A DNA stretch of 11,938 nucleotides from an uncultured Bacteroidales bacterium (GTDB lineage Bacteria; Bacteroidota; Bacteroidia; Bacteroidales; UBA932): positions 1 through 11,938 of the forward strand of contig CAJOJC010000034.1 in the NCBI GenBank assembly GCA_905234775.1, written 5' to 3'. The notes beneath the pieces were generated by a model. The model was not told the DNA's origin and did no database searches. It saw only the letters and a list, made by a program, of their open reading frames with translations. The position numbers and the translations under genes are program-made. Shown here in pieces: positions 10,256 through 11,938 of this stretch. The stretch's first letter is position 1. Each line of letters begins with the position of its first letter.

Positions 10256-11938
10256 ATGGACAGTAACCGCAAATATAACAAGATCAGGATCGGTCTTGCT
10301 GTCTTCGCGGCATTGCTGCTCGGGCGGCTGTTCTACATCCAGATAGTCAACAGCAAATACAAGACAGACGCGCTGAACAATTCCATCGTCTACGAGACTA
10401 TTTATCCCCCGCGCGGGGTCATCTACGACCGCGGCGGCGAGGTGTTGGTCGGCAACCAGGCCACCTACGACATACTAGTGACCCCGCGCGAGGTGTCGGC
10501 TTTCGACACCCTGGGGCTGGCAAGAGTGCTGGAGGTAGACCCCGATGTCGTAAGGGAAAAGATGGATTATTACCGGACATATCGAACTCGTATCGGATTT
10601 AAAACGCTTGTGTTTTTGAAACATGTCAGCGAAGACGCATATATGCGCTTCAGCGAGGTCGAATATCGCTTCCCCGGTTTCCGTGGCCAGATCCGCACCG
10701 AGCGCATGTATCCCTTCAATGCCGGCGGAAACCTGCTCGGCTATGTCTCGGAAGTTGACGTAGACTACATCAGGAAACACCCCGAATACAAGGGCGGCGA
10801 CAACGTTGGCCGCACGGGCCTGGAAGCCGCCAGGGAGGAAGACCTTCGGGGCGAGAAGGGCTATCATATCTACCTTCGCGACTCGCGCAACCGCGTCCTG
10901 ACCTCCTACAACGAGGGCGAAGACGATAAGCTCGCTGTCCCCGGCCGCGACATCCACACTACCATCGACGCCCATCTCCAGCAGTACGGCCAGGAACTGA
11001 TGAAGGGCCGCAAGGGCTCGCTTATCGCGATCGAGCCGTCTACCGGTGAAATCCTCGCGCTCGTTTCCAGTCCGGGCATCGATGTCGATGTTCTCGCGAA
11101 CATGGGCAGCAACTACGACAAGCTGATGGCCGACCCCGGCAAGCCGCTCTTCAACAGGACGGTACAGGCCAGCTACCCGCCCGGCTCGGTATTCAAGCTG
11201 GTATGCGGGCTGATCGGCATGCAGGAGGGAGTGCTGGCGCCGTCGATGCGCTACGGCTGCTCGCGCGGCTATGTCTATGCCCCCGGGAAGAAACTCGGCT
11301 GCCATGAACACCGCTCGCCGCTATCGTTTACCGAGGCGGTCAGGATGTCGTGCAATGCCTACTTCTGCAACGTGTTCAAAAACGTTCTCGAGAACAAGAA
11401 GTATTCTTCGACCGCCGAGGCGTTCGACAAATGGGAATCGTACGTTCGAGCGTTCGGCTTCGGCTCGAAGCTCGGAACCGACTACCCCGGCGAGTTGGGA
11501 GGGAATATCCCAACCTCGTCGTACTACGATAAGGTCTACGGGCGCGGACACTGGCGCTTTTCGTCGGTCGTTTCGCTCTCGATCGGCCAGGGCGAAATCG
11601 GCGCCACGCCCCTGCAGATCGCCAACCTCGCCGCGATTCTCGCGAACCGGGGCTGGTATGTTACGCCGCATATTATAAAGACCCCCGATCAGGTCGGGGG
11701 TGACGGGAGTGACGGGAGTGACGGGGGTGACGGGAGTGACGGGGGTGACGGGGGTGACGGGAGTGACGGGAGTGACGGGAGTGACGGGAGTGACGGGAGT
11801 GACGGGAGTGTCATGGCCGACCCCGATCGGCCATCTTTCCATTCTACCGGAATCGACCGCAAGTACTTCGAATACGCGGTCGACGGAATGTGGCAGGCCG
11901 TGAACATGACGGTCACCGACGGGGCCACGGCTACCCTC
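10256..11938 (+). CDS. mrdA: Penicillin-binding protein 2, elongasome transpeptidase (partial, C-terminus beyond right edge)
   Basis: I translated from the ATG at 10256, 3 nt after mreD; 561 residues are visible with no stop. PBP2 crosslinks peptidoglycan during side-wall elongation with RodA. A membrane helix lies at about 10-31, then the [11 protein letters not shown] pedestal motif (51-61). The transpeptidase domain has the nucleophile motif SVFK (Ser311, Lys314) in YPPGSVFKL and SCN (365-367). [34 protein letters not shown] precedes an anomalous insertion: residues 476-526 include a 36-residue DGS/DGG repeat tract (483-518). The normal sequence then resumes ([15 protein letters not shown]). 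The KTG motif is expected just past the edge, since the window ends at the ATATL that usually precedes it. rodA would be expected next. Apart from the insertion the protein looks functional. Confidence 0.94.
11681..11701. repeat. Left hairpin of the mrdA repeat element
   Basis: ACCCCCGA (11681-11688), loop TCAGG (11689-11693), TCGGGGGT (11694-11701): an 8-bp perfect stem. It is GC-rich and could form in DNA or mRNA. It encodes TPDQVGG within PBP2. No U-tract follows, so it does not look like an intrinsic terminator. Confidence 0.85.
11701..11808 (+). repeat. 12-copy 9-bp tandem repeat (TGACGGGRG) in mrdA
   Basis: Twelve contiguous units occupy 108 bp. Units 3, 5 and 6 are TGACGGGGG and the other nine are TGACGGGAG, so only one position varies. 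The six units at the right end are identical, the pattern expected from recent slippage expansion. In the mrdA frame the units read Asp-Gly-Ser or Asp-Gly-Gly (residues 483-518). The strand is strongly purine-biased (G-rich) throughout. Confidence 0.95.
11813..11834. repeat. Right hairpin of the mrdA repeat element
   Basis: ATGGCCGA (11813-11820), loop CCCCGA (11821-11826), TCGGCCAT (11827-11834): an 8-bp perfect stem preceded by GTC and followed by CTTT. It encodes MADPDRP in PBP2. Its layout matches the left hairpin read on the opposite strand. Confidence 0.85.

Follow-up and report, generated by a model that had tools for sequence, protein, structure and literature searches.

Palindromic repeat elements within protein-coding sequence are already known, best from Rickettsia, and two described systems come closest to the locus analysed here. 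As set out in the available portion of Di Nocera et al. (2013, PMC3733652), CGTC-tagged REPs carry a CGTC or TGTC/CCTC tag, an 8-9 bp stem with A-T complementarity at its first and second positions, a loop of 4-5 nt (other lengths in few species) and a 3-nt tail that is mostly CCA; they form dimers, among which the tag-facing arrangement predominates and the tail-facing one is rare, include intragenic units, count Bacteroidetes among their host phyla, and are described there as without a known dedicated transposase. In the accessible part of the Rickettsia japonica study (PMC3767692), an ATGAC motif is given for RPE-4, RPE-6 and RPE-7, and orthologues have different RPE groups at one site or close to it, the choice between hot spots and divergence of one old insert being left undecided there for the shared sites; the same text mentions Wolbachia palindromic elements, one of them placed in the gene region that also has eRPE-4. 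An RPE-bearing guanylate kinase is still active, with a changed substrate affinity, according to the accessible part of PMC2229807. Our literature search, which drew largely on sources outside subscription journals, found no intragenic palindromic element reported for PBP2 or for rumen Bacteroidales.

The window (the whole 11,938-nt stretch of DNA analysed, from an uncultured Bacteroidales bacterium) ends within mrdA, whose product, PBP2, matches the Pfam families PBP_dimer (2.8e-34) and Transpeptidase (1.9e-34). The gene stands last in what we take to be the order mreB-mreC-mreD-mrdA, the names besides mrdA coming from a reading of the ORFs alone. Residues 1-474 are 93% identical to L001 and 94% to L002, and across the first 474-475 residues the nearest relatives, L001 to L004, which are rumen-type Bacteroidales MAGs, show 89-94% identity. 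The KTG motif lies past the window's end, beginning in L001 at 11 residues after the match to the last codon. A preliminary description had reported a 9-bp minisatellite read in frame inside the transpeptidase domain, and the array is where it was said to be: TRF placed it at 11695-11810 (period 9, 12.9 copies, 95% matches), with (DGS/DGG)x12 forming 36 residues in the mrdA frame, then VMADPDRPS, after which the relatives' sequence resumes. That description had missed two perfect 8-bp hairpins that bracket the array and whose unit recurs in sister genomes; its choice of a simple minisatellite as the primary object was not borne out, the tract appearing instead as a palindromic element of a dispersed family, to which the array is secondary. 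The features are as follows.

10256..11938, plus strand: mrdA (PBP2) coding sequence, the host gene, an ORF open at the window end, with PF03717 and PF00905.
11674..11844, plus strand: PBP2 loop occupied by the element, borders approximate, from DNA alignment with L001-L004 and the loop-length census.
11678..11704, minus strand: palindromic unit 1, GTCACCCCCGACCTGATCGGGGGTCTT, 8-bp stem, 5-nt loop, gene reading KTPDQVGGD (hairpin scan, inverted repeat I3).
11696..11812, plus strand: 9-bp array GGGRGTGAC, 13 units, reading (DGS/DGG)n (TRF 11695-11810 and unit list).
11810..11837, plus strand: palindromic unit 2, GTCATGGCCGACCCCGATCGGCCATCTT, 8-bp stem, 6-nt loop, gene reading VMADPDRPS (hairpin scan, inverted repeat I4).

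Units 1 and 2 are 27-28 bp long, begin GTCA, end TCTT and stand with their GTC ends facing; the 27-mer of unit 1 recurs identically in sister-genome loci. The repeated 9-mer, GGGGGTGAC, corresponds to the last nine bases of unit 1, with twelve further copies after it, of which nine have an A; taken in register starting at 11696, the 13 units are a mixture of GGGGGTGAC and GGGAGTGAC, the final one being GGGAGTGTC. A 20-base probe, allowing up to 3 mismatches, had 12 matches in the window, all in the tract, where 200 dinucleotide-preserving shuffles gave an expectation of 0.00. Folded as single-stranded DNA, the whole tract did no better than shuffles (z 0.47).

We read the tract, with a probability of about 0.88, as a dimeric palindromic repeat element, REP- or RPE-like, that was inserted in frame in a hot-spot loop, the array having grown by slippage. 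A copy of the element, or a tract carrying one, would have been inserted in the flexible loop that joins the strand following NRGWY.TPH to the next helix, displacing a few native residues; slippage would then have multiplied the final part of the first arm (GGGGGTGAC) to give the 9-bp array. An array unit of three codons would keep the frame, and the protein would thereby tolerate the insert. In this reading the element works like an intragenic REP or RPE, closest to the CGTC-tagged REPs and the Rickettsia RPE-4/6/7.

Alignment with relatives, a check the preliminary description had named, upheld its claim that the loop, short elsewhere, has an insertion that keeps the frame. Defined as the stretch between NRGWY.TPH and the helix, the loop was readable in 69 of the 80 fetched loci; it has 24-32 residues in 68 of these, 60 in L003 and 71 in the window, where the element replaces about 6-8 native residues (native relatives have residues like SDTEAERHE here). 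Among 120 listed proteins the loop has 24-32 residues in 118, 58 in P0026 and 37 in P0025. The last of these, on a separate contig, carries a short version of the window's element, with the same left junction and a short interior. P0032, whose loop is native, differs from P0025 at 1 position in the first 472 residues and at 6 past the loop; given this near-identity, even very close sequences differ in whether they have the element, a difference that could have come about through recombination or chimeric assembly. In a loop-region search, the best 7985 candidates that were scored yielded 15 proteins, the inserted PBP2s among them being P0025 and P0026; the 13 others look like low-complexity matches in unrelated proteins and were set aside. 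As a separate observation, P0040 has, by eye, a P0029-like N-terminal part and a remainder like other PBP2s, and may be chimeric.

An AlphaFold model of P0025 built on a 58-sequence alignment reached a mean pLDDT of 84.7, superseding a weak earlier model (mean 62.1), and in Foldseek its top-ranking hits were MrdA/PBP2 structures. The sole segment of at least 3 residues under 50 pLDDT in this model was 478-491, within the insert, so that the alternative offered in the preliminary description, a tolerated insertion in a flexible loop, would be the best fit. We infer that the effect on PBP2 is likely neutral to slightly harmful, and not regulatory.

The dispersal of the window-type element, here called family 1, is known from the sister genomes, those of L001-L004 being designated G001-G004. 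BLAST of the tract gave 22 matches in G001, 5 in G002, 4 in G004 and none in the other three of the six genomes searched. A covariance model built from 18 units found, at E 0.01, 47, 24, 4 and 21 matches in G001, G002, G003 and G004, with at least one match in 7 of 9 genomes; across 101 genomes around G001, at E 1e-4, matches were present in 37 (up to 75 per genome) and absent from 64. The stem covaries: in alignment A1, which includes unit 2, all 136 of 136 cells were paired, and 20 cells showed double changes, against 6.3 in shuffles. The window matched nothing in Rfam at gathering scores, the tract had no match in a plasmid collection searched in distant mode, and the window PBP2 had no relative among viral contigs.

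As in the CGTC-tagged REPs, so far as the available account of those describes them, the window's units are tagged CGTC and TGTC, have an 8-bp stem that starts from an A-T pair, form a dimer and have intragenic copies, and no transposase gene is associated with them. Against the loops given in that account, those of the window measure 5 nt (unit 1) and 6 nt (unit 2), and its spacer has grown into the 9-bp array; against A-T at both of the first stem positions, the first pair in family 1 is A-T in 17 of 17, while the second is T-A in 11 and C-G in 6. The 38 family-1 units that were counted divide by tag into CGTC (21), TGTC (6), AGTC (8) and GGTC (3). Their tails, unlike those described for the CGTC REPs, are CTT in 16 of 38 and CCA in 2 of 38, and tail-facing dimers are about as frequent as tag-facing ones (7 vs 8); since tails and dimer preference differ, we did not assign the element to the described CGTC families.

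Y1_Tnp (RAYT-type) genes, present at 20 places in five of the six genomes, were considered as mobiliser and rejected because the units do not flank them. Among 14 places scanned, units lay within 1.5 kb of the gene at none of six in G003 and at one of eight elsewhere, where another ORF intervenes; at the G002:C20 place a covariance-model match is 1.25 kb away. The remaining 6 of the 20 places are on contigs without a model match. In the genomes examined we found no mobilising enzyme and observed no insertion event.

Clustered model matches in G001, G002 and G004 made up 63 elements, three single matches having been dropped (G001:C28:6899 and G004:C23:6032, both weak, and G002:C57:33009, E 2.9e-4). 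Thirty-six of the 63 (18 of 32 in G001, 12 of 16 in G002 and 6 of 15 in G004) lie in frame inside an ORF, according to a heuristic that asks for an ORF open from stop to stop, with 25 or more residues to either side of the element, and applies a codon score for which the genes of the window were the training set. Whole ORFs were scored, single-flank scoring having mixed up sense and antisense; the wrong frame was apparently chosen for at least L085. Twenty selected host ORFs were searched for Pfam domains. A single domain spans the insert in RNase R (RNB), urocanase, an amino-acid kinase, a metallophosphatase, ApbE, a nucleotidyl transferase and a Mur ligase; the insert falls between domains in TldD and in an FAD synthetase/flavokinase, and outside the matched domain in other hosts, while host L170 had no Pfam match. 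Family-1 dimers were also seen in a DnaX-like protein, where the dimer follows the gamma3 domain (L090:349-2094), and in another G001 ORF (L182:1-1800); each is 54 bp long, that is 18 codons, with units overlapping by 1 nt.

The PBP2 loop of L003 holds a different palindromic family (GTCATTTCGAGC... GAGAAATCTC), which we call family 2. Three extra hosts (Mur ligase, RNase R and urocanase), picked for alignment before their state in G003 was known, all had family 2 in G003 where G001 or G002 has family 1 (3 of 3). At RNase R and mrdA the elements replace native residues and are not mere additions. The G003 RNase R and ApbE matches have one flagged stop codon each, near the 5' end, and a frame open through the element. 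G004 has one family-2-like unit in its Mur ligase. The urocanases of G002 and G004 (L197, L198) have a third inserted sequence (AGGLGGTPHSPLGVQGD...), assigned to neither family, in the loop that is occupied by family 1 in G001 and by family 2 in G003.

In 1.447 Mb of G003, sampled in stretches, the family-2 pattern found 87 elements comprising 146 units, compared with 1 unit in a single mononucleotide shuffle. Two-unit opposite pairs were tag-facing in 24 cases and tail-facing in 1, and 38 of the 87 elements lie in frame inside ORFs. In the favoured reading frame, GTC or GAC is a codon in 31 of 35 family-1 units (from 25 elements of 30 tried, orthologues unmerged) and in 46 of 60 family-2 units (from 38 elements), so that the encoded peptides are hydrophilic (KTPDQVGGD and VMPDSDRAS, for example); this bias arises in part because some frames have stop codons. 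In the G003 nucleotidyl transferase (L275:3970-4191) two distinct loops have family-2 inserts, and the second insert contains tandem repeats of SSSSSV.

The two families meet at the same places far beyond chance. Family-1 host sites flanked by at least 25 residues numbered 42, of which 24 had an orthologous pair in the sampled part of G003 and 18 had none; family 2 was at the site in 14 of the 24, orthologues unmerged. With orthologues merged, family 2 occupied 11 of 18 distinct comparable sites, or 8 of 15 when the three that had helped define the pattern (Mur ligase, RNase R and urocanase) are excluded, where a random place is occupied by chance 1.3% of the time (binomial P 5.6e-17 for 11 of 18). 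Conversely, the aligned host genes contain 12 family-2 elements, 11 of which were at a family-1 site, such sites making up 2.8 of 23.2 kb. The remaining 7 of the 18 comparable sites, the Rho host for example, were without family 2.

These coincidences resemble what the accessible text on Rickettsia RPE-4/6/7 reports: in-frame inserts in conserved protein genes, with different families at the same sites. The RPE motif ATGAC is present in one of the window's two units, unit 2 beginning with GTCAT, its complement, and unit 1 with GTCAC. In contrast to the RPEs as portrayed there, the elements belong to another phylum, native unfilled loops persist in some sister species where all the aligned Rickettsia orthologues have inserts, and arm-seeded tandem arrays are prominent; the likeness is one of description. 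To set beside the solvent exposure that marks RPE-encoded peptides, the insert of P0025 offers its pLDDT below 50. The Wolbachia elements, as mentioned in that source, are likewise palindromic repeats that code for protein, again a likeness by description alone.

A variant of the favoured reading, with another history, is a single old insertion per loop, inherited and then overwritten in place by the palindromic family dominant in each genome. It would account for different families at orthologous sites, some of which share one reading frame (VMPDPDRASL vs VIPSAAKESL), but we consider it unlikely, given where native loops have been kept. At RNase R the native loops of G002 and G004 are homologous, and different families occupy the site in G001 and G003; the Mur ligase loop is native in G001, and that of mrdA in L001, L002 and L004. 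Regaining a homologous native loop after an insertion requires recombination. A broader proposal, which we put forward tentatively and at somewhat under even odds, is that in these bacteria core proteins have conserved docking loops where successive palindromic families replace native residues and each other, their arms seeding arrays. If this is true, docking loops filled by whichever family is active in a lineage would be a general, still-running route by which protein loops are rewritten. Native, family-1 and family-2 states of one loop exist in close species, so the choice between a hot spot and divergence of an old insert becomes directly testable.

Returning to insertion of a dimeric element with slippage in its spacer, we find that such arrays adjoin other elements as well. 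In the sampled G003 sequence, 21 of 143 tandem arrays with a period of at least 6 touch a family-2 element, against a null of 1.0%; 11 of these 21 have period 21, and many of their units have GTCATTTCGAGC-like half arms. Family-1 spacers at L081, L083, L085, L088 and L096 show a similar habit. The window's 9-bp array therefore looks like one case of what appears to be a general tendency of the elements to seed arrays from their own arms, which would tie minisatellites in coding genes to REP-type elements. A rival reading, a functional length-variable minisatellite whose 9-bp copy number tunes PBP2 activity or drug response, the palindromes being incidental, could draw on the three-codon unit and on the varied lengths of the inserted loops (71, 60, 58 and 37 residues); we regard it as improbable, since like elements, many of them with arrays, are found in unrelated proteins, so that PBP2 is not special, and since the loop stays at 24-32 residues in 68 of the 69 loci that could be read. 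Unusual loops of essential proteins, PBP2 among them, may be footprints of repeat elements and not adaptations. That the array, at 116 nt near short-read length, was misassembled from short reads is very improbable, its unit variants coming in non-periodic order with the frame kept and the same left junction recurring in P0025 on another contig. The antisense of the array is open too, within an ORF of 173 aa on the minus strand (11321-11842) that reads TPVTPVTPV... and is probably no gene; such an open frame is expected because the 9-bp repeat is stop-free.
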